From the IMG/VR virus record IMGVR_UViG_3300028802_000060, positions 1 to 22,882 of that record: a DNA stretch of 22,882 nucleotides, one strand, 5' to 3'. This document shows positions 9,185 to 22,882 of this stretch, piece after piece. Under the pieces are notes generated by a model. The model saw only the letters and a list, made by a program, of their open reading frames with translations. It was not told the origin of the DNA and searched no databases. This DNA comes from a virus. Each line of letters opens with the position of its first letter. Positions within the stretch are counted from its first letter, which is position 1. The translations under genes were made by a program, and so were the position numbers.

Positions 9185-9636
9185 GGTGTTCCTTCCTCAA
9201 ACTGGATAGTCACATCATACTCAATCACGTCTCCGACCTGGTGAGGGAAGACTTTGAAAGCCTGGTCAAGATCCGACCCTGACCAGTGAACGTCGTATGT
9301 CCCATCGGGGGCCTGCATCTTAAGCAGACCGGGATGGACCCAGAACCTTCTCAGTCGTGCGTACTGAGTAGCTGCTACAGCACCTGTGATCTGCGTGAAT
9401 GAATTTTCACAGATGACCTGGAATGGACTCCAAGCACGGAACCCAGGTCCGTTGTCATAGACGTACTTGAACTGACCATTCTGATTCTTGACGACATCCT
9501 TATCTAAATACCGCGACTCAGAAGGTGGCTTGTATCCCTTCGTCATGAATGCATACGTCGCCGCGGCTGTGGCACCGGAAGCCCCAACGTAGGTTGCGTG
9601 AGACAGGATGATCATGTTGGGATTTGGTGCGCTCAT
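9181..9636 (-). CDS. Short tail protein directly after the tape measure, Dit-like candidate
   Basis: This 151-residue protein begins MSAPNPNMIILSHATYVGAS and is predicted beta-rich throughout (GFRAWSPFQVICENSF, YDVHWSGSDLDQAFKV, VIEYDVTIQFEE). In siphophages the gene after the tape measure usually encodes the distal tail protein, which uses the same fold as the tail tube; size and strand-rich composition are compatible with a minimal version. No motif confirms this. Start and stop both lie in ATGA overlaps (with tape measure at 9633-9636 and with the next gene at 9181-9184). Confidence 0.5.
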   Translation of the reverse strand: MSAPNPNMIILSHATYVGASGATAAATYAFMTKGYKPPSESRYLDKDVVKNQNGQFKYVYDNGPGFRAWSPFQVICENSFTQITGAVAATQYARLRRFWVHPGLLKMQAPDGTYDVHWSGSDLDQAFKVFPHQVGDVIEYDVTIQFEEGTP

Positions 9637-12110
9637 CGCAGTGCCTCAGCAACAGCTTCTCGGACCATCTTCTTCATCCGGTACTCATCACCCAGTCTGT
9701 CGTCGGAACGGTCGAAGTAGAAGGGACCGATCTGCTCGGTCATCTGCTGCTGTTGCTTCAGCTGCTGGGTAACGCGGTTTGAAAGAACGACACCCAGCTC
9801 TGAGCCTTGCTCACCGAGTCCGATGTTGCTACCGAATGGCGACCGCGAATTCTTCAGATCGATGACGCCACCCTTAGCGAATGGAACTCTCTTCCCAGGA
9901 CCGTAGATGTTCTGAACGAACTTCTTCTCTTTGGCATTGAAGTTCTCGATCAGCCCACTGATCCGAGCAAGAAGAGGTGCAGCCACAGAGGGTGGCAGGG
10001 CGAAGCCTTCTACGAGTCCCTGGATCACACCCTTGGCACGCTGAAGACCGGCAATTCTACCAGCGATGGACTCCAGCTTTTCCAAGTTGTTAGCCCCTCG
10101 GATAGCTGCAGCAGTTTCATCCAGGGCTTGTTGATTAGCCAGTCGAGTGGCTTCTCTCACCTTATCCTGGATTGCCTTCTTCTCCTTCTCGAGTGCCCGT
10201 CGCTTCGACTCAAGAACTTCTTGGTCGTGCTTCTGGCTTGCCTTCAACTGCTTCTGCAAGTTATCGAGATGGTTAGCGGTATCCCTATCTCGTAGTGTCG
10301 CCAGTTTCCGCTGCTCCAGTTCCTGAAGAGCAACGATGTCCTGAACTTCCTGCTGCTTCTCCTGGAGTTTGGTAAGCTGAGACTCACGATCGAGGTCACG
10401 CTGTTCAGAAAGCTGCTGTCGCTGTTCCTGTGCTCTCCGCTCAAGGAAGTCACGGATTGACTCACCGTTCTGACGGCGAATGATCTGAGACATCTTAAAC
10501 TGGAGATCCAGCTGACGATTGAGGTGAGCCTGTGCTTGTCCTTCTTTCTCGATCGCGGCGATCTTGGCATTGATGGCTTCGAGCAAGAACTTGCCGCTGT
10601 ACTTCTCAAGATTGATGGCAGTACCCAACAACCTCAGTCGCATTCGCAGAAGGATCAGCGCCCTCTCTTCTGCGATATTGCGAAGAGCATCACGGGTACC
10701 CTTGCCACCTCCACCTGAGGCACGATCAAGAGCCCCCTGCAGTCGCCGGGTTCTTGCACTCGGTCCAGCATTGCCAAGGGCCGCGATCTTTGAATCAATC
10801 CTACCAGTGGCTGCTTCACCTGATGCCGCAATCGCGTTATTGATGGTATCTTGCTGGATCCTTTGAAGCGCAGCAGCATCTGCCTGTCGCCGGCGAGCCT
10901 CGACATTCTCATTGAGAATTCGAGTATTGGCTTGGGTGATTTCGTTGTACTGAGAAGTTGCCAAGGTCAATGAGTTTTGTCCATCGATCATCTGGACAAC
11001 TTCGCCATTTACGGTACGGATCTGGAGTGGAAGCTTAGCCAGATACTCGGTGTTCGCAATGTTAACTCCAGCTTCCCTGTCCCGCTGGATCATTGCGTCC
11101 GTGCGTGCGGCAGCTTCTTTAACCAGTGCTTTGCGGACCTTCTCAATGTTATCCGCTTCTGTGGCCTGTGGATGAGCGGCGGCTTCTGCGAACTGGACAT
11201 ATTCGGCTACGGCGTCGTTCGCCTTCTTCTGGGCCGCGAACTGCTGAAGCAAAGAAACCGCAGTCTTATCAGACGCAAGCCCCAGCTCGTCAGCTTTCTG
11301 AGTCGCAGCTTCAAAGAGAGTCAACCCAGAGTTTCGGGCCAACTCAAGAACCGACTGACCGAGCTGATCAATCGCTTCTTTCGCGTGACGACTAGGATCA
11401 ATGACATCCTGAATGACGTCGCCAATCTTCTCCAGTGCCGTCTGTGCAAGCTGAAAACCTACACCAAGAATGGCGCCACCGACGATACCACCGACGGCGC
11501 CAATCGCAAGTCCAGCCAGCTTCGGGGCAAGTGATGCCCGCCCTGCCTGGATCTTACTGAGCTGACCTTCTACCTGAGCTCGTTCTCGAGCACGACTAAG
11601 CTGTCCCTCTTCTGCGGCGGCTTGACGAGCGGTAAGAACACCCTGTTCTTTTGTCAGCTCACTCCGCTTCGCAATGAGTTGAAGCTCGGTCTGTGTCAAG
11701 CCCAAACTCTTGGCCGTCTGATTGAAGCGTTGTCGCTCCTGCGCACCCAGAGCTCGATTGGTCTTGGAACGAGATGACTCCAGTTCCTCGATCTTCTTGA
11801 GGTCAGATCTAAGTTCTGTATTCAGTTTTCCGCGAACAATCCGCTCCGACTCTGCAAGATCATTCTTGATCTTGGTCAGACGCTTCTGCCTAGTTTCCTC
11901 AGCCTTGGCAGAGTTGTTGGATGCGTGGTCAATCTGACGAAGGTCGTCGTTCAGAGTCTCCAGTTCCTTGCGATCATAAGTCGTAAGGAACTCTACGAAG
12001 ATCCGAAGTGCACCAGCGGCAGTACCTCTCGCGCCACCAACTGCCCCGAGTGAAGTAAGGGCAGGCGAGCTCTGACCGAGACGCGGTTGGCCTCTAGTAG
12101 AGAAGGTCAC
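9633..12110 (-). CDS. Tape measure protein
   Basis: About 825 residues. The first 180 are a long charged coiled coil (KAEETRQKRLTKIKNDLAES), followed by a glycine-rich hydrophobic stretch near 200-225 (LAIGAVGGIVGGAILGVGF), a second coiled coil rich in Gln/Arg/Glu (residues about 540-680) and a C-terminal FAKGGVIDL...GEQGSELGVVLSNRV segment typical of tape measure ends. It sets tail length and helps DNA passage; at about 0.15 nm per residue (known rule) the tail would be near 120 nm. The GTG at 12110 forms a GTGA overlap with the stop of the frameshifted chaperone and has GAGG five to six bases upstream. An in-frame TTG at 12125 is possible but has a badly placed Shine-Dalgarno. Confidence 0.88.
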   Translation of the reverse strand: MTFSTRGQPRLGQSSPALTSLGAVGGARGTAAGALRIFVEFLTTYDRKELETLNDDLRQIDHASNNSAKAEETRQKRLTKIKNDLAESERIVRGKLNTELRSDLKKIEELESSRSKTNRALGAQERQRFNQTAKSLGLTQTELQLIAKRSELTKEQGVLTARQAAAEEGQLSRARERAQVEGQLSKIQAGRASLAPKLAGLAIGAVGGIVGGAILGVGFQLAQTALEKIGDVIQDVIDPSRHAKEAIDQLGQSVLELARNSGLTLFEAATQKADELGLASDKTAVSLLQQFAAQKKANDAVAEYVQFAEAAAHPQATEADNIEKVRKALVKEAAARTDAMIQRDREAGVNIANTEYLAKLPLQIRTVNGEVVQMIDGQNSLTLATSQYNEITQANTRILNENVEARRRQADAAALQRIQQDTINNAIAASGEAATGRIDSKIAALGNAGPSARTRRLQGALDRASGGGGKGTRDALRNIAEERALILLRMRLRLLGTAINLEKYSGKFLLEAINAKIAAIEKEGQAQAHLNRQLDLQFKMSQIIRRQNGESIRDFLERRAQEQRQQLSEQRDLDRESQLTKLQEKQQEVQDIVALQELEQRKLATLRDRDTANHLDNLQKQLKASQKHDQEVLESKRRALEKEKKAIQDKVREATRLANQQALDETAAAIRGANNLEKLESIAGRIAGLQRAKGVIQGLVEGFALPPSVAAPLLARISGLIENFNAKEKKFVQNIYGPGKRVPFAKGGVIDLKNSRSPFGSNIGLGEQGSELGVVLSNRVTQQLKQQQQMTEQIGPFYFDRSDDRLGDEYRMKKMVREAVAEALR

Positions 12111-12807
12111 GTCGCCCTCAGCCAATCCTTGTTTTCAAGCTCATCCACATCATCACCGTTTCTGCCGATGCGGTTAGCTTCTTGTAGTTGCTTGTAAGCG
12201 TCCACAGGGTTGTCGGCCTTGAGCGCCAACTCCCAACTGCGTTCCTCTATCTCGAGGTTGACGATTTCCTCGAGAATGTTTTTCAGTTCGGGATAGGTGA
12301 GACTTCTGATAACGTCTCGTTCGAATCCTCGGAGGAGGAGCTTGGACCAGATTCTTCTGGTTGAGAACTCGTCGTCTCCATCCCCGACAGCAGCTCGGAT
12401 AGAACTCCACCAAGCATCGTCGGGGTCGTCGAGTTTGGGTCGAGTAAGGGCCTCAACTGAACTAGATCGTTGACCTCACAGATCGCGTCCAGAATAGCAA
12501 CGATCTGATTCATATAGAGTGATCGACCTTTTACCTTCTCGAAGGCCGGTGCCGTCAATCCTAATTCGAAGAGCTTCTGGGGGTCGCTGAACTTCTCAGC
12601 CAGCTTAGCCTCCAGCTGTGGCACCCCAGTATCTGGATCAACGTAGAGTCGAACGGCCTCGTTCATGATTTCTACGTGTTGACGTAGAACCTCATCTCCG
12701 AAGTCATTGCGCTGTTCCCATGGAATAGGATCCACCAAGATGCTATCATCCGCGGTGAGTTGCACCTCGATGGCTTCCCGCTTGAATGCGTGCCGCGCTT
12801 CAGGCAT
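12107..12807 (-). CDS. Tail assembly chaperone G-T, -1 frameshift product
   Basis: This 233-residue product comes from a programmed -1 shift. Residues 1-125 are read in the frame that starts at ATG 12807. Ribosomes slip at CCCAAAC (12433-12439) and continue in the -1 frame for 108 residues, beginning LDDPDDAWWSSIRAAVGD and ending ENKDWLRAT at the TGA 12107-12109. The -1 frame has no stop from the slip site to that TGA and encodes protein-like sequence (ELKNILEEIVNLEIEERSW, LALKADNPVDAYKQLQEANR). In lambda-like phages the G-T protein binds the tape measure and recruits tail tube subunits; the low-frequency long form is essential. Its stop lies in the GTGA overlap with the tape measure start, exactly where coupling is expected. 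No canonical start exists for the T part, so it must be a fusion. Confidence 0.88.
12283..12807 (-). CDS. Tail assembly chaperone G, unshifted form
   Basis: This 174-residue form results when no frameshift occurs. The shared part (residues 1-125) is mainly helical and acidic, with AIEVQLTADDSILVDPIPW, LRQHVEIMNEAVRLYVD and YMNQIVAILDAICEVNDLV. After the slip site the zero frame adds 49 low-complexity residues rich in Ser, Glu and Pro (SQPEESGPSSSSEDSNETLS) ending at TGA 12283. The contrast between this poor tail and the well-formed -1 frame is itself evidence that the downstream DNA is selected in the -1 frame. The gene starts two bases after the tail tube stop, and its place between tail tube and tape measure is diagnostic. 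Confidence 0.82.
   Translation of the reverse strand: MPEARHAFKREAIEVQLTADDSILVDPIPWEQRNDFGDEVLRQHVEIMNEAVRLYVDPDTGVPQLEAKLAEKFSDPQKLFELGLTAPAFEKVKGRSLYMNQIVAILDAICEVNDLVQLRPLLDPNSTTPTMLGGVLSELLSGMETTSSQPEESGPSSSSEDSNETLSEVSPIPN
12382..12425 (-). promoter_or_regulatory. Frameshift-stimulating stem downstream of the heptamer
   Basis: CCCCGAC (12425-12419) is perfectly complementary to GTCGGGG (12388-12382), giving a 7-bp GC-rich stem around a 30-base loop. It begins 7 bases after the slippery heptamer, within the 5-9 base spacing known for -1 frameshift stimulators. The loop is long enough to hold a further hairpin or a pseudoknot contact, which I could not resolve by eye. Confidence 0.65.
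12433..12439 (-). promoter_or_regulatory. -1 ribosomal frameshift slippery heptamer CCCAAAC
   Basis: On the minus strand the zero-frame codons read GAC CCA AAC TCG; the heptamer C CCA AAC has the X XXY YYZ form, so both tRNAs can re-pair as CCC and AAA after a -1 slip. Zero-frame residues Pro124 and Asn125 are decoded at the site. It joins the G and T reading frames of the tail chaperone. Confidence 0.85.
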
Positions 12808-12809
12808 GA

Positions 12810-13442
12810 CTAGTTGTGCTCGTAGAGTCGACCGTAGGAATCCCGCGTGTCAATCGTGGTAGCGATCTCCGGGAAAGCACGGAACTCGAGGGGCGGACTG
12901 GCGGGATCCGACTTGTCAAAGCGGAAGGTCTTCTCACCACCAGAGACAGCTGCACGACGGAAGACAAACGCGAGGAGCTTACCGGCGGCAGCCTTCGGGA
13001 AGATAACTGCAACGCGAAGCTCTGGAGTCTTGTTCGCCCCGTCGTCCAGGAACCTCATGATCTGAGTAGCGCCAGAACCAACGACGATGGTCGGTGACAT
13101 ATCGAACGCCATCGCGTATGCGATCTGGTCGCTGCTGGCAAGAACTTCCGCCAGCTGAGTAGTCACCTGGTAGTTGCGATCAGTGATGTCCTGATCATAG
13201 GCGCCAAGGATCTGGTCCACATCGTCACGGATGGCAATGTCGAGATTCTTGACAACGTTGATGCCGCCTCGTGTGAGGCCGAGAGCAACCCAACTCGCAG
13301 CTGGTGCCCCTGAACTCGGATCGATAACGTTCTCGATCCTAGTCGGCATGGGCAGTCCAGATCCACCGATGAGGATCTTAGCTGGACCGCGAAGAGTGTT
13401 CAGCAGGTTGATGCTGTTTTCAAGGACCTGCCTCTGGGACAC
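12810..13442 (-). CDS. Major tail tube protein
   Basis: The 210-residue protein lies directly before the chaperone pair, the standard position for the tail tube. Sequence features fit: an N-terminal LIGGSGLPMPTRIENVIDP, a long strand-loop region WVALGLTRGGINVVKNLDIA, DQILGAYDQDITDRNYQVTT, and beta strands AVIFPKAAAGKLLAFVFRRA and PPLEFRAFPEIATT typical of the tube fold, where a diagnostic phrase about dependence on baseline voltage-free beta-hairpins is absent but overall strand spacing agrees. It polymerises as hexameric rings around the tape measure. It starts with GTG, with AGGAGG five bases upstream; the preceding gene's TAG stop is part of that Shine-Dalgarno, suggesting strong and coupled expression. 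Confidence 0.78.
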   Translation of the reverse strand: MSQRQVLENSINLLNTLRGPAKILIGGSGLPMPTRIENVIDPSSGAPAASWVALGLTRGGINVVKNLDIAIRDDVDQILGAYDQDITDRNYQVTTQLAEVLASSDQIAYAMAFDMSPTIVVGSGATQIMRFLDDGANKTPELRVAVIFPKAAAGKLLAFVFRRAAVSGGEKTFRFDKSDPASPPLEFRAFPEIATTIDTRDSYGRLYEHN

Positions 13443-14606: not shown

Positions 14607-15191
14607 CTAGCTCTCACGAATGAGATGCTGCTCTAGCGAATCTCTGACTCCGAACTCCGTCCATGCCGGTTCCGTAATCCCCTCGGCTGGTACCGACGTG
14701 GAGATGTCCTTCTCCATCTGGAGGAGTGCTTGTGCGGTGTTGCGAAGTTCACGGGCGGCGACGGATGTGTCGATGGAGACGGATCCGAGACCTCCACCCC
14801 CTGCCATCGACTCGCGTTGGGCGACTTTCGCGGCATCGGCAGCAATCGCCAGGAGTAGCCTAGCGGAAGCGATAGTGACATTCCCGCCTCCCTCACTGAG
14901 GAAGTACTCGACCTCTTCGTCGCTGAAGATGCTCCAGTAGTAAACGAAATCTACGTTAACCCCGATGGAATGTGGTCCGAGGAAGGTCACAATCCCATTC
15001 CGGTAGTCAACAGCAAATCCCGATACTACTGGAACATCATCGGCAAAGATCTGAATGTCAGGGGAGGTAAGAACGTTCGCGTGAGACAACTTGTAGTAGA
15101 TTGTCTCGCCATCACCAACGGAAGATTCCCGCGTGATGGTACTACGGTCAGAGGTCTTCAGGCGAACGGCGTCGATATCAGAAAGAGTCAT
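14607..15191 (-). CDS. Head-tail adaptor (connector) protein
   Basis: The 194-residue protein has an N-terminal beta-rich part (IYYKLSHANVLTSPDIQIFA, VVSGFAVDYRNGIVTFLGPH, VDFVYYWSIF) followed by a helical part with DEEVEYFLSEGG and ASARLLLAIAADAAKVAQRE. The second part matches the helical core of gp6/gp15-type adaptors, in which a DDE-type turn precedes an Ala/Leu-rich helix. The extra strands at the front resemble a small beta domain seen in some connectors of this class. It would bind beneath the portal. It starts in an ATGA overlap with the stop of the giant repeat gene, so the two are translationally coupled. Confidence 0.7.
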   Translation of the reverse strand: MTLSDIDAVRLKTSDRSTITRESSVGDGETIYYKLSHANVLTSPDIQIFADDVPVVSGFAVDYRNGIVTFLGPHSIGVNVDFVYYWSIFSDEEVEYFLSEGGGNVTIASARLLLAIAADAAKVAQRESMAGGGGLGSVSIDTSVAARELRNTAQALLQMEKDISTSVPAEGITEPAWTEFGVRDSLEQHLIRES

Positions 15192-18100
15192 TCACCTTCC
15201 CGCCTCTTCGGTCTACCGAACTTGTCCTGAACTGCCACCCCACCGGTAGTGCTGGGACGACCGAACTTATCTTGAACCTGTTCATCACCCACAGCCGAGG
15301 TGGTTCTCCAGTTGGGTGTTCGTCCGACGAACCGCCAGCTGATCCTCTGGCCGCTGAGATGAAGATCTCCAACCACCTCTCCGGATGGAATGCCACCTGG
15401 GTAGATGACCACCATACCTGGGATGAGACGTGGGAAGCCCAGTGCCTCGGCAGGTGCGATGCCCTCTGGTTGAATGATGGTCTGAACGACCAGCCTTGGC
15501 AGGCCGAGGATCTCTGCCGACGTAATGCCAGATGGCAGGAAAACTCGGCCGCCCGTGGTGATCGTGGGCGTGCCCAGGGCCTCCTGTGGCCCAACAGATG
15601 TGGGACTAATAGTCGCGGCGCCGTGTAGAACCGTCGGGGAGCCTGAAGCTTCACCTGACGAGATGCCGGACGGCAGAATGACATTAGTTGCTTTGAGGAT
15701 CGGCGTTCCTAGCGCCTCACCGGTCGGAACTGCAGAAGGAAGAATCCTTGCGGTGCCTGGGATGAGGGTAGGTGTACCGACTACTTCCGCTGTGTCGATA
15801 GCAACTGGACGAATGAACCCAGCGCCATAGACGAGAGAAGGTGTTCCTACTGCTTCGCCGGTTGGAATTCCACCTGGCAAGATGTTGACGTTGCCAGCCA
15901 GAAGTGATGGAGTGCCAAGAACTTCCCCGCTGGAGATGCCAGTTGGAAGGATCTTGGCGGAGGTGGTAAGTAGGGGGGTCCCTACCACCTCCGCAGACAG
16001 AATGCCGCCTGGGAGAATTGCCGCAACCCCAGCGATGAGGCTCGGTGTTCCGAGTACCTCACCGGTGGGAATTGCGGTTGGGATGATCCTCGCACTACCC
16101 GTGAGAGTGGGAGCTCCCAGGGCCTCTCCGGTTGGAACCGCAGTGGGGAGGATCCTAACTAGACCAGGAATGAGAGTCGGTGTTCCGAACGCTTCAGCCG
16201 ACGGAACGGCAGTCGGAAGGATTTGCCCAGCACCAGAGATGATGCTTGGAATACCGACCGACTCTCCTGTGGGAATTCCACCGGGCAGGATAAGAACCTG
16301 TCCAGCAACCACCACAGGGGTTCCGAGGGCTTCTCCACTGGAGATAGCTGTCGGTGCTAGAGTCCTGACGATGATCGGGGTACCGAGTGCTTCACCCGGA
16401 CCGATCGAGCTTGGCAGGATGAAGGTAAGCCCAGCACCCTGTGAGAGAATCGGAGTCCCAACCGCTTCGCCGCTGGCGATGCTTGACGGTTGGATGAAGA
16501 CGTTGCCTGCGACAACTACCGGGTTGTTAACGACTTCAGCCGAAGCAATGGAGCCTGGCAGAATGTTCGCCGTAGCGACAACTGTCGGTGTTCCAACTGC
16601 CTCAGCTGAAGTGACCCCCGGCGGCAGGATGCTAACGTTGCCGTGAACAACAACCGGCGTTCCTAGGGCTTCACCAGTAGTGATACCCGTCGGAAGGATG
16701 TTTACATTGCCAGTCAGAACGACTGGAGTACCAACTGCTTCACCAGAAGCAATCGCTGTTGGTTGAATGTTAACGTTGCCATGAACGACTGTCGGCGTTC
16801 CAACAGCCTCGGCACTAGCAATTCCTGTCGGCTGGATGAATGTTCCAGCCCCGACAAGAGTTGGAGAACCTACCGCTTCCGCGCTGGCAATCCCAGATGG
16901 GAGGATGCTAACATTGCCATGCAGAACAACCGGAGTACCGACTGCTTCGGCACTGGCGATGCCGGTTGGGAGAATGTTAACGTTGCCATGAACGACGGTA
17001 GGAGTACCAACACCCTCACCACTGGCAATCCCAGATGGAAGAATGTTGACGTTACCTGCAATGACAACCGGTGTACCAACTGCTTCGCCAGAAGCAATCG
17101 ACGCTGGCTGGATAGTTCTACCAAGGCTGGAAACTACCAGCGTTGGTGTTCCAACAGCAGATCCACCGCCACCTTCTTGGAAGGTATCGGTCTGGAAGGC
17201 GTCTAGCTGGAACCCATCGGCCCCACCAGTTCCACCTGGTTCACTGATTGAACTAGGGAGAACGTAGTCGTTAACCTTGAGGATTGGGGAATTAACAGCT
17301 TCCCCAGTCACAATCCCCACAGGGGCGATGACTACTGAACCGGGCAGAAGAGTGGGTGAGCCAACTACTTCCGTGCTAACGATTGCCGTCGGAAGAATGG
17401 TACGAGCTACGGCACCAGAAACAACAAGAGTTGGAGTTCCAACGGACTCAGCTGAAGTGATGCCCGCTGGAAGAATGTTAACGTTGCCCTTCGAAAGAAC
17501 AACTGCCCCGAGAGCCTCGGCTGAGGCAATCCCACTGGGCTGGATGTTAGCATTCCCAGCTGCAAGAACTACCGCCCCAAGTGCCTGCCCAGAAGCAATC
17601 GAGGTGGGCTGAATGTTAACGTTGCCGGTGGTGATAACAGCCGTACCAAAAGCTTCCGCAGAAGCAATCGAGGTCGGCTGGATGTTAACTCCACCGTGAA
17701 CTACAACCGGAGTACCGACGGCCTCGGCAGAAACGATGCCACTCGGTAGAATGTTGTTGGTTGCCTGGAGTACTGCCGCACCTAGTGCTTCACCGGAAGC
17801 AATGGCGGTCGGCTGAATAGTAACACTACCTGGTCGCAGAGTATGTGAACCAACTGCCTCTGCACTTGCGATAGCAGACGGTGAGATGGTCAGTCCACTG
17901 GATGAACCAAGTGTCCACAGATTAAGAACGTCGGCGTCCGACAGCGCATAGTCGAGGACGAATGGTTCGTCTAGGGTTGCGTTGAGGCCAGGTTTTGACG
18001 CGTTCGCGGTATTGGCGATGATGAAGTTCCCGCTGCCGGGATAGACGATCGGCCCAGCAACTAGAAACGGACCATTAGCTAGAACACCGTCGAAGTAGAG

Positions 18101-19360
18101 ATTATAGATCCCAGCCCCAGAGGGATCCCATGTAAGGATTACAAGATGTTTGGTGCCGTCGTTATAGTTTGACGGATTGATTCCGAGGACGTTACCGTTG
18201 AGGCGCGCCTCAATGTTCGAGCCGCCACCACCAGCACCGTTAACGTCGATAACTACGCCACTGGATCCACCGTCCCACCAACCCATGAGTCCGGCGAATG
18301 CACCAAAGGCTGTGCCTTTGATCCAGACGCCCATCGTGATCGCTGCCGTCGGCGGAGTGTAGCCAAAGACATCGATCAGATCGAACTGACCTGGGAAGGT
18401 CATCGCCTTGTCAGTATCACCGGCGATTAGACCAGTAACACCGAGCGTTACCCCGGACGAACCATTGTTGATTGTACCAGGGTGATTATTTCCACTGGCA
18501 TCTGCCGCGACGGTTCCCGAAGTTTCACCTAGTCGCCAATGAGCGTGCGGCACCAAATCCAGCATAGCATTGAAGTATGCTGAAAGTGGCTGCAGTCGTG
18601 GACGCGGAACTGCCTGAGCGGAAGCTATTGAAGACGGAGAGATCCGTGCTGTACCAGCAACTACCGTCGGTGAACCAACGGCCTCCGCTGAACTGATCGC
18701 GCTAGGATTGAGTTCATTCAGTTTGAAAGAACGAGCAAGAACTACCAGACCTGTGATCGATGTCGTGATCGACAACGTCTGGATAGCAGTATCAGCTGAA
18801 GCCGCGCTGTTAGAGATCAGCGTCGCATGACTGTAGTGGTTTACTGAAGAGACGCCATTGTTCGATGCTCGAAGCGTCGGTGTTCCGTGGTTTGAAGTCC
18901 AGGTATCATTACTAGCTCTGGCCACAGACCGGAAGTCTGCTCCAACCATCGCCACCAATTCATTGACATCCGCGTTAGCAGCTGCTAGAGTAGCGGTCGT
19001 TGGGCTAGTAGTTCCTGAAGCGTTACCGACTTGGTCTGCTGCTGGAGATGGAGCTTGTCCTGTCCACTCCTCGAGATGGGCCGCGATGATACCAGAAGGA
19101 ATGGCTGGAACGGTTGGAGCAGCATCCGCCCCGGTGGCAACTTTCCTGTAGAGACCAACCGCGCAGCTTGTACCAGTTGCGGAATCTAGCGTCCAACCCG
19201 AGATTGCTGCCGGAGCTGTAGCAACGCCTGTGACGGAGACGAAGAGGAGAAGAAGATGACCAGCATCCCGGTTCTCACCAGCTCCCCAAGCAGGGGTAAC
19301 TGCGGTATTGACTGCGCCCTGTGATGCCGCGCCGACAGAACCTACGAGGTTAAACCCCAT
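15188..19360 (-). CDS. Giant repeat-containing virion protein with LamG-like domain
   Basis: This 1390-residue protein has four parts. Residues 1-210 form a beta-sandwich-like domain (AGHLLLLFVSVTGVATAPAA, GIIAAHLEEWTGQ). Two repeat units follow near 215-250, then a LamG/concanavalin-like domain at about 262-485 (HAHWRLGETSGTVAADASGN, TLDEPFVLDYALSDADVL). About 36 further units of a 23-residue repeat, consensus ILPSGIASAEAVGTPTVV-x-GNVN, run to about residue 1340, broken once by a Gly-rich insert with DGFQLDAFQTDTFQ. The end carries two VQDKFGRP motifs. It is probably a fiber, a decoration or a host-glycan-binding surface protein; the regular repeat suggests a beta-solenoid rod. A strong AGGAAGG sits eight bases before the ATG. 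Function is not established. Confidence 0.8.
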   Translation of the reverse strand: MGFNLVGSVGAASQGAVNTAVTPAWGAGENRDAGHLLLLFVSVTGVATAPAAISGWTLDSATGTSCAVGLYRKVATGADAAPTVPAIPSGIIAAHLEEWTGQAPSPAADQVGNASGTTSPTTATLAAANADVNELVAMVGADFRSVARASNDTWTSNHGTPTLRASNNGVSSVNHYSHATLISNSAASADTAIQTLSITTSITGLVVLARSFKLNELNPSAISSAEAVGSPTVVAGTARISPSSIASAQAVPRPRLQPLSAYFNAMLDLVPHAHWRLGETSGTVAADASGNNHPGTINNGSSGVTLGVTGLIAGDTDKAMTFPGQFDLIDVFGYTPPTAAITMGVWIKGTAFGAFAGLMGWWDGGSSGVVIDVNGAGGGGSNIEARLNGNVLGINPSNYNDGTKHLVILTWDPSGAGIYNLYFDGVLANGPFLVAGPIVYPGSGNFIIANTANASKPGLNATLDEPFVLDYALSDADVLNLWTLGSSSGLTISPSAIASAEAVGSHTLRPGSVTIQPTAIASGEALGAAVLQATNNILPSGIVSAEAVGTPVVVHGGVNIQPTSIASAEAFGTAVITTGNVNIQPTSIASGQALGAVVLAAGNANIQPSGIASAEALGAVVLSKGNVNILPAGITSAESVGTPTLVVSGAVARTILPTAIVSTEVVGSPTLLPGSVVIAPVGIVTGEAVNSPILKVNDYVLPSSISEPGGTGGADGFQLDAFQTDTFQEGGGGSAVGTPTLVVSSLGRTIQPASIASGEAVGTPVVIAGNVNILPSGIASGEGVGTPTVVHGNVNILPTGIASAEAVGTPVVLHGNVSILPSGIASAEAVGSPTLVGAGTFIQPTGIASAEAVGTPTVVHGNVNIQPTAIASGEAVGTPVVLTGNVNILPTGITTGEALGTPVVVHGNVSILPPGVTSAEAVGTPTVVATANILPGSIASAEVVNNPVVVAGNVFIQPSSIASGEAVGTPILSQGAGLTFILPSSIGPGEALGTPIIVRTLAPTAISSGEALGTPVVVAGQVLILPGGIPTGESVGIPSIISGAGQILPTAVPSAEAFGTPTLIPGLVRILPTAVPTGEALGAPTLTGSARIIPTAIPTGEVLGTPSLIAGVAAILPGGILSAEVVGTPLLTTSAKILPTGISSGEVLGTPSLLAGNVNILPGGIPTGEAVGTPSLVYGAGFIRPVAIDTAEVVGTPTLIPGTARILPSAVPTGEALGTPILKATNVILPSGISSGEASGSPTVLHGAATISPTSVGPQEALGTPTITTGGRVFLPSGITSAEILGLPRLVVQTIIQPEGIAPAEALGFPRLIPGMVVIYPGGIPSGEVVGDLHLSGQRISWRFVGRTPNWRTTSAVGDEQVQDKFGRPSTTGGVAVQDKFGRPKRREGE
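15345..17898 (-). repeat. 69-bp minisatellite encoding 23-residue repeats
   Basis: About 36 imperfect, in-frame copies of a 69-base unit fill this stretch; unit length varies between 20 and 25 codons, and one unit is interrupted by a glycine-rich insert near 17150-17240. Conserved positions in each unit are Pro3, Ile6, Glu10, Gly13 and Pro15, while the first Ile and the spacer vary. The copies in the middle (about 16600-17100) are the most alike and those near both ends more diverged, a pattern expected if the array grows by internal duplication. Confidence 0.85.
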
Positions 19361-20850: not shown

Positions 20851-21279
20851 CTAGAGCTTGAAGATCCGGTTAGTGGTGTTGTCCCACTGAACCGTGATGT
20901 CACCGCCGTTCGGTCCCACAGGCATCCCGGTCGCCGTGTCGATGTAGGCGATCAGAGGCCAGTCAGAAGCGTTGGCTGTGGCAGTTGAAGCGAAGACAAC
21001 AATCGCGCCAACGGTTGGGCCAGAAACTGCAGAGAAGACCGAGTCAGCACCGTCCGCGATCCCGGAAGTAGCTGTCTTGGTTCCTAGAGATGCAGAAGAG
21101 AACCCGACTCGGGCACCCGTTGGAACTGAAGCATAGACCGTGTCCAACGAAGCATTGAACACATAGGCGGTGGGCTGGTTAGAGATCGAGAGGAGGCCAA
21201 CCCGGATCGGAGCGGTCAGCCAGTTAATCGACCCGTTCAGGAAGTAGTTCCGGCCCACGTCGTACAGGACGTTCGCCAC
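20851..21279 (-). CDS. Conserved phage virion-type protein of unknown role
   Basis: The 142-residue protein (opening MANVLYDVGRNYFLNGSINW, then IRVGLLSISN, ending GGDITVQWDNTTNRIFKL) belongs to a widespread phage family with the same opening and the same Gly-Gly-Asp-Ile-Thr-Val end. Members usually lie among head genes and are annotated as structural or hypothetical; I know of no assigned reaction. It is beta-rich, with GARVGFSSASLGTKTA, VFSAVSGPTVGAIVVF and LIAYIDTATGMPV. Translation starts at GTG 21279 with AAGGAG nine bases upstream, and the start lies 56 bases inside the preceding glycosyltransferase gene. Confidence 0.65.
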   Translation of the reverse strand: MANVLYDVGRNYFLNGSINWLTAPIRVGLLSISNQPTAYVFNASLDTVYASVPTGARVGFSSASLGTKTATSGIADGADSVFSAVSGPTVGAIVVFASTATANASDWPLIAYIDTATGMPVGPNGGDITVQWDNTTNRIFKL

Positions 21280-22882
21280 GAGTTAGCTCTCCTTTCTGAA
21301 GAAACAACGCCCGCCACTGTCGGGCAACCCAATCCCATGACTTTGCTGGAACATTGGCTATCACCTGCTCATGGATTTGCGCCCGTTCACTGAGGGGCGT
21401 CTTCAGAGTCTTAATCACAGCGTTCGCGTATTCCTGAAGTACCTCCGGGTTGCGAACATCCTGTGAAAGGATCAAGCCTGACCCGACAGTTTCCTCAAGT
21501 GCCGCCAGATTGTTCGTGATCGGGATTGCACCACCGAGCTGTGCTTCAACGGCAGTGATGCAATACGTCTCCGTGAAGTAGGTCGGGTAGAGCCAGACCG
21601 ACGATCGCTTGAAGGCATCGGCGAGTTCCTGCTGGTTCACCCTCCCATGCTGAATCACATTCCTGGTCTGAGCGATCTGAGACAGGATCTTGTTCTGGAA
21701 CTCTCTTAGATGCGGAAAAGCGTCGGCGAAGATATCGAAGTTCTTCCAGCCGTAATAGATATGAAGCTCGGCGTCTGGAACCTCCTCGATGACCTTCGGC
21801 CAGATGTACTCCATGATCAGGTCGAGTCCACGATCTGGCGATGACGAATAGATGACTCGATGCGGCTCCCTCTCCACAGGCTCGGCGAACCGTTCAATAT
21901 CAACCCCATTGCCGATCACGAAGATTTTCTCGGGATCGATGAAGGGGTATTTCTCGATCATGAACTGCTTATGCCACTTGGAAAGAACAACGATTGCATT
22001 GAACCGCCGAGCCCGTTCTGGAGTCAGTCGATCACCGGCATCTGTATCGTGCATCCAGAGGACGAAGCATTTGGTTTCCGGGTTCCAGTCCGCCATCTCT
22101 GGGGCTCGCCAGGCGATGAATAGATCACTAGGAATCTCTGCTCGGAAGTGATCATTCGAACGATATCCGACTCCGTTGTAGTAGCCGGGCTCATCGATCT
22201 GGGAATAGACGTGAACTCGGTGACCCGCGTTTGCGAGTTCCTCCCCCAGGCGAATGACGGCAGTCTCCGAGCCACCCAACCCGCCTGTCCCAAAGCTTCT
22301 AGGATTCCAGACTTCTGGAGCTCCATTGGCGGCGATGATGACCTGCTTGTCATACTTCACCCCAGGTTCGTAGTCGACGAACAGCCAACCTGTGGCGCCC
22401 CATGGTTCTCGATAGAGCTGGTGGATCTTGCCCCTGTCCCACAGGAGGCGCTCCATGTCGAACTGATCCATGATCCTCAGATGACCCTTCGGTTCGAGTC
22501 TATCCCAAGCTTCGATCCGTCCGCCTTCCCATGACAGGTAGGGGGTCGTCATGATGATCCGGTTCGCCGTCTTCTCGACCTTCGCCAACGTCTCCGCTGG
22601 ATCTACGACGTGTTCGATGACTTCGAAGAAGACTCCAAGGTCAGCTTTTTCGCCTTCCCATCCTCCGATCTGATCAACATTACCGACTTCGAAACGGGCA
22701 TCCACCTCCCATTTCTCAGCTCGTAGTGTCGCCAGCTCAATACATCTAGGGTCGAGATCGAAGCCTGTGACGTGGGCTCCGGTGGTTTTGGCGAGCGGAA
22801 GTGCGATGAAGCCATCTGAACATCCCCAATCAACGATTGTCTTCGCGTTGATCTGGGTAGCCACATCGATAGCAAATCGCAT
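21224..22882 (-). CDS. Methyltransferase-glycosyltransferase fusion, 5' end uncertain
   Basis: At least 552 residues, with an ATG exactly at the window edge, so the true start may lie further right. Residues 1-150 are a Rossmann SAM-dependent methyltransferase: motif I VDWGCSDGF (Asp18, Gly20, Gly24), an acidic residue at Asp42 (TGFDLDP) and FEVIEHVVDP at 86-95. Residues about 180-520 are a GT4-type glycosyltransferase: GGLGGSETAVIRLGEELANA near the N-side, IVVLSKWHKQFM and IFVIGNGVDIERF, SSSPDRGLDLI near 345, and the ETYCITAVE motif (E-x7-E) near 437-445 that binds the donor nucleotide. It could build and methylate a glycan on virion proteins, or modify host surface sugars. Its C-terminal 18 codons overlap the next gene in another frame. 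Confidence 0.82.
   Translation of the reverse strand: MRFAIDVATQINAKTIVDWGCSDGFIALPLAKTTGAHVTGFDLDPRCIELATLRAEKWEVDARFEVGNVDQIGGWEGEKADLGVFFEVIEHVVDPAETLAKVEKTANRIIMTTPYLSWEGGRIEAWDRLEPKGHLRIMDQFDMERLLWDRGKIHQLYREPWGATGWLFVDYEPGVKYDKQVIIAANGAPEVWNPRSFGTGGLGGSETAVIRLGEELANAGHRVHVYSQIDEPGYYNGVGYRSNDHFRAEIPSDLFIAWRAPEMADWNPETKCFVLWMHDTDAGDRLTPERARRFNAIVVLSKWHKQFMIEKYPFIDPEKIFVIGNGVDIERFAEPVEREPHRVIYSSSPDRGLDLIMEYIWPKVIEEVPDAELHIYYGWKNFDIFADAFPHLREFQNKILSQIAQTRNVIQHGRVNQQELADAFKRSSVWLYPTYFTETYCITAVEAQLGGAIPITNNLAALEETVGSGLILSQDVRNPEVLQEYANAVIKTLKTPLSERAQIHEQVIANVPAKSWDWVARQWRALFLQKGELTRGERPVRRGPELLPERVD

Follow-up and report, generated by a model that had tools for sequence, protein, structure and literature searches.

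A reading frame that is conserved, and has no start codon near its beginning, lies in the tail gene region of an uncultivated tailed phage (IMG/VR record IMGVR_UViG_3300028802_000060), and the locus raises the question of how this frame comes to be translated. The frame, here called T, overlaps in the -1 register the end of a gene, G, that precedes the presumed tape measure gene. A preliminary description of the DNA had proposed a complete programmed -1 frameshift in G. We compared the window (the whole stretch of 22,882 nucleotides that was analysed) with related viral contigs, and with near certainty we predict from the comparison a lambda-type programmed -1 ribosomal frameshift in a tail assembly chaperone gene. 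The features concerned are these:

12810..13442, minus strand: putative major tail (tube) protein, 210 aa, next gene upstream of G; phrog_21417 and phrog_2175, 'protein with Ig domain'
12283..12807, minus strand: G gene, predicted zero-frame tail assembly chaperone, 174 aa, from ATG at 12807 to a stop ending at 12283; 12 homologues aligned
12433..12439, minus strand: candidate slippery heptamer C_CCA_AAC, its codons shared without change by the window and 11 of the 12 relatives selected by tail protein
12426..12432, minus strand: 7-nt spacer from heptamer to stem, of equal length in 13 of 13 heptamer-bearing sequences
12382..12425, minus strand: putative stimulatory stem, 5' arm CCCCGACG at 12425-12418 and 3' arm TGTCGGGG at 12389-12382
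12283..12432, minus strand: dual-coding overlap of the serine-rich 49-aa zero-frame tail of G and the first half of T
12107..12433, minus strand: T segment in the -1 frame, 108 codons and a stop, predicted to be reached only after the slip
9633..12110, minus strand: tape measure protein, 825 aa, start GTG at 12110; identity from position and length

The T frame and its relatives

The reading frames are laid out as the preliminary description had them. The heptamer CCCAAAC at 12439-12433 stands in the exact X_XXY_YYZ phase over the zero-frame codons GA[C CCA AAC]. Past it the -1 frame is open for 108 codons (LDDPDDAWW...DWLRAT, stop TGA at 12109-12107), which would yield a G-T fusion of 233 residues made up of G residues 1-125 and the 108 T codons; the zero frame runs for 49 further codons to the stop ending at 12283.

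A search with the major tail protein returned eight IMG/VR contigs and its alignment returned four more, and the frameshift was not a criterion in either step. The most distant of these 12 is L021, whose major tail protein has 51% identity. A pattern scan of the viral collection found the cassette in two further contigs, L024 and L028, which are identical over G/T and were counted as one, for a total of 13 relatives. Both were found by the pattern only, having been missed by the tail-protein scan, and because they were selected on the motif we excluded them from the evidence for heptamer conservation; their T frame is open and homologous. Direct searches of viral contigs with G, T, the tape measure protein and an 898-aa protein gave nothing, as did direct searches of annotated phages with G, the tape measure protein and the 898-aa protein. 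Scanning genome contigs with the tail-protein alignment revealed no relative, and the T alignment was too diverse to build a degenerate scan.

Stop codons in the -1 frame of homologues had been named beforehand as evidence against a frameshift. None was present in any of the 13 distinct contigs examined; each relative has an open, homologous T, which shares 33-49% identity with that of the window (23% for L021). T is conserved at the level of protein: the third position of its codons is the least identical both in the overlap (0.48 vs 0.60 and 0.57) and past it (0.31 vs 0.53 and 0.62), and across the overlap the zero frame has lower identity (0.36) than the T frame (0.43). The window is a single metagenome record, as would be needed if a sequencing or assembly error, or a real indel, had split one gene into two frames, but 13 other contigs show an identical -1 offset at the corresponding position, and past it their zero frame stays open for about 40-50 codons. 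The relatives refute this explanation, and we give it practically no weight.

The first ATG, GTG or TTG in the T frame of the window is T codon 68, and every relative lacks such a codon in the -1 frame upstream of T codon 42; T can therefore be reached only by frameshifting. T is a helical domain, distinct and with its own conserved sequence, as might be expected of a separate protein translated from an internal start or by reinitiation and left unfused to G. However, the conserved T sequence begins directly past the heptamer, within the first few T codons and thus ahead of any of these start codons, and a separate T would leave the invariance of the heptamer codons (below) unexplained. We rejected independent initiation of T, given the lack of early starts in its frame, and consider it very improbable.

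Structure prediction places the ordered domain of G at residues ~10-123, ending beside the slip site, with disorder beyond (AlphaFold2, 13 sequences). Coding for T probably accounts for the serine-rich zero-frame tail, which would then be a by-product and not a functional domain: the leucine-rich T frame uses CTC codons that give TCC in the zero frame.

The slippery heptamer

C_CCA_AAC is the sole in-phase X_XXY_YYZ motif within G. The bare heptamer is not above chance, with five copies of CCCAAAC in the window against 2.5 expected. Among the 12 relatives chosen without regard to the motif, 11 have an in-phase CCCAAAC at the corresponding Asp-Pro-Asn. With the window included, this makes 12 heptamer-bearing sequences found without the motif, and the codons GAC, CCA and AAC are the same in all 66 of their pairs, whereas baseline same-codon rates in the same gene are 0.62 for GAC, 0.30 for CCA and 0.53 for AAC. 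Codons just 5' of the heptamer are near baseline in the 66 pairs. The product of the codon-usage odds for the heptamer is 1e-15, a figure calculated over sequences that are not fully independent.

In two relatives, L015 and L020, a -1-frame TGA lies immediately 5' of CCC AAA, so the shift cannot precede the heptamer. L021 lacks CCCAAAC and reads GAT CCA GAC CGA AAA ACG, with the T homologue in the -1 frame. Because homologous T lies in that frame there, this phage probably slips on A_AAA at the homologous place. The T frame at L021:6160-6275 is reached at CGA AAA ACG, followed by a GC-rich stretch, and L021 thus appears to represent a switch of slippery site within one family. Its run of A residues (CGAAAAACG), located at the homologous place, is the kind of sequence on which transcriptional slippage could occur. 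In CCCAAAC, by contrast, no run exceeds three, and on this ground transcriptional slippage was rejected; a slip elsewhere in the overlap is countered by the stop codons that abut the heptamer in L015 and L020 and by conserved T starting directly after it. We judge transcriptional slippage or a slip at another site to be very unlikely, and retain ribosomal frameshifting at the heptamer as the explanation.

The AAC codon in the A site is the one unusual point of the system. The best AAA-type heptamers in E. coli end in A or G (PMC4066793), so slippage on C_CCA_AAC is expected to be modest. We saw by eye no conserved Shine-Dalgarno-like element just 5' of the heptamer in the sequences of the relatives. 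A heptamer with Asn (AAC) in the A site might slip often enough to be of use in this lineage because the Asn-tRNA of the host would differ from that of E. coli (for example, in lacking queuosine), with the CCCCG stem making up for a weak slippery site, a suggestion that we put forward tentatively and think rather unlikely to be right.

The downstream stem and a model for G and G-T

The CCCCGAC/GTCGGGG stem noticed in the preliminary description does follow the heptamer after a 7-nt spacer; it has eight pairs when an inner G-U is counted, and its 28-nt loop contains an inner helix. Alignment of homologues had been suggested as a check, and it bore out the heptamer, the spacer length and the 5' arm of the stem; the perfection of the stem was less well conserved. 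CCCCG, 7 nt past the heptamer, is invariant in 13 of 13 heptamer-bearing sequences. Ten of the 13 have a 3' arm that forms 6 to 10 pairs with it and no more than one mismatch, and the stems of L002, L006 and L020 are weak, with a four-pair core followed by mismatches. In lambda-type chaperone frameshifts such downstream RNA structure is common but not universal. A search of Rfam gave no match.

The weakness of these three stems, together with the fact that the arms encode conserved Pro-Asp and Gly residues, would fit a real frameshift beside a fortuitous stem, in which CCCCG is dictated by the conserved T peptide xPD and the 3' arm by glycine codons. We compared the stem with sequences in which the T codons were randomised synonymously according to the phage's own codon usage (500 trials). 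The folding energy of the window was equalled in 0 of 500 randomisations (p < 0.002) and its stem in 0.6% (p = 0.006). For 12 sequences combined, the stem score exceeded the randomised expectation with z 8.9 and the folding energy gave z -6.3, values that are indicative because related sequences are not fully independent. The synonymous positions of the 5' arm are also invariant, and L005 has a compensatory stem (CCCCGGAGAA/TTCTCCGGGG, compared with CCCCGACG/TGTCGGGG in the window) in which the sixth and seventh pairs are changed on both sides. A fortuitous stem therefore seems to us improbable, and we favour a stimulatory role.

In the frameshifting model, the majority of ribosomes would translate G to its stop and release the 174-aa protein. 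A smaller share, stalled at the stem 7 nt past the heptamer, would slip by -1 on C_CCA_AAC and continue to the 233-aa G-T. During the slip, Pro-tRNA would re-pair from CCA to CCC and Asn-tRNA from AAC to AAA. By analogy with lambda, G may coat the tape measure protein and the T domain may recruit the major tail protein, starting the tube. The comparison shows the sequence elements and their conservation, the conservation of T as a protein and its lack of a start codon; we infer the slippage and its rate, the effect of the stem and the chaperone roles.

Neighbouring genes, protein family and known systems

The major tail protein gene comes first, followed by G/T and then the tape measure gene; the flanking genes are identified by position and length, with a PHROG match in addition for the tail protein only. 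The tube-protein role of the 12810..13442 product is putative and is assigned from position. The start of the tape measure gene had been placed at GTG 12110, overlapping the T stop as GTGA; the overlap is as described, and a start codon is found at the same aligned residue in 9 of 9 sequences. Of 14 sequences, 11 have an overlap of 4 nt between T and the tape measure gene, and the other three have an overlap of 1 nt or a gap of 1 nt. The tape measure protein has one hydrophobic segment near residue 200, and its alignment matched nothing in PHROGs.

Elsewhere in the window, upstream of the major tail protein gene, 15188-19360 (minus strand) encodes a 1390-aa minor tail protein, which is internally repetitive, since phrog_13352 and phrog_8501 match it nine to ten times over. 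At 20851-21279 (minus strand) there is a 142-aa phrog_644 protein whose counterparts in mycobacteriophages (about 50% identity) and in Pseudomonas F116-like phages (46%) span a very broad range of hosts, set against its otherwise unmatched neighbours. A 552-aa open frame at 21224-22882 (minus strand), beginning at the window edge, encodes a single protein with a methyltransferase domain (residues ~12-151) followed by a glycosyltransferase domain (~200-493). Terminase and exonuclease similarities, at about 32-35% identity, lean towards actinophages.

For G we found no significant match in Pfam or PHROGs and for T none in PHROGs (13 members), and G, T and the tape measure protein of the window matched nothing in either library; absence from a library does not exclude membership of a chaperone family. 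A profile search of solved structures returned nothing meaningful, and in Foldseek searches of the PDB and BFVD no hit fell below E 0.001. Among solved structures YqbN, which we take to be a chaperone-family protein, aligned best, with Z 4.2 over 88 residues, below significance. In the weak BFVD list, eight of the top 32 matches are named tail assembly chaperone, tape measure chaperone or frameshift protein G, and all matches, including phage tail assembly chaperones and a 'pre-tape measure frameshift protein G', have E > 0.04. Structural comparison thus points weakly to tail chaperones, with each match below significance.

The kind of system is well known from lambda G/G-T, and sequence comparison supports well the view that this uncultivated phage holds an uncatalogued case that is ordinary in kind. 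What it contributes is an uncatalogued chaperone family in which comparison gives clear support to frameshifting, and it settles the annotation of three products: G, G-T and the tape measure start. The set of 14 sequences, with its almost unchanging heptamer and variable stem, suits tests of a trade-off between stem and slippery site. The understanding of tail assembly is unchanged by this case.

Joined tail assembly chaperones are annotated in large numbers in actinophages: PRFect counted 2,397 of them in 3,679 genomes, and the 'threethree' heptamer is one of its motifs (PMC10885494). The locus shares the genetic layout of these SEA-PHAGES chaperones (PMC10885494); unlike them, its chaperone family is absent from PHROGs and Pfam. 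In Arthrobacter phage Wollypog, the closest by the terminase of a relative (32%), the annotated join goes to the other frame, and the Wollypog tail proteins have no similarity to this set. Among the g-t sites of haloarchaeal viruses, HCTV-1 has G_GGA_AAC and HCTV-2 has A_AAA_AAC (PMC5009743). These share with the present heptamer an AAC codon in the A site of a tail chaperone gene; they differ in the X base and have archaeal hosts.

For lambda, the account given in PMC5009743, which cites Levin 1993 and Xu, Hendrix and Duda 2004 for the gpG/gpG-T frameshift, describes a low-level -1 shift that produces G and G-T at about 30:1, with G binding the tape measure protein and T recruiting the tail tube protein. 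The same account describes the G/G-T arrangement as widely conserved despite low sequence similarity. The differences from the lambda system are that no sequence similarity to catalogued families was found, that the heptamer CCCAAAC places AAC in the A site, that G runs on for 49 codons past the slip, and that there is a conserved stem. Like lambda gpG/gpG-T, the locus is flanked by the genes for the major tail protein and the tape measure protein, and it has a heptamer within G from which a -1 shift would lead to a longer fusion.
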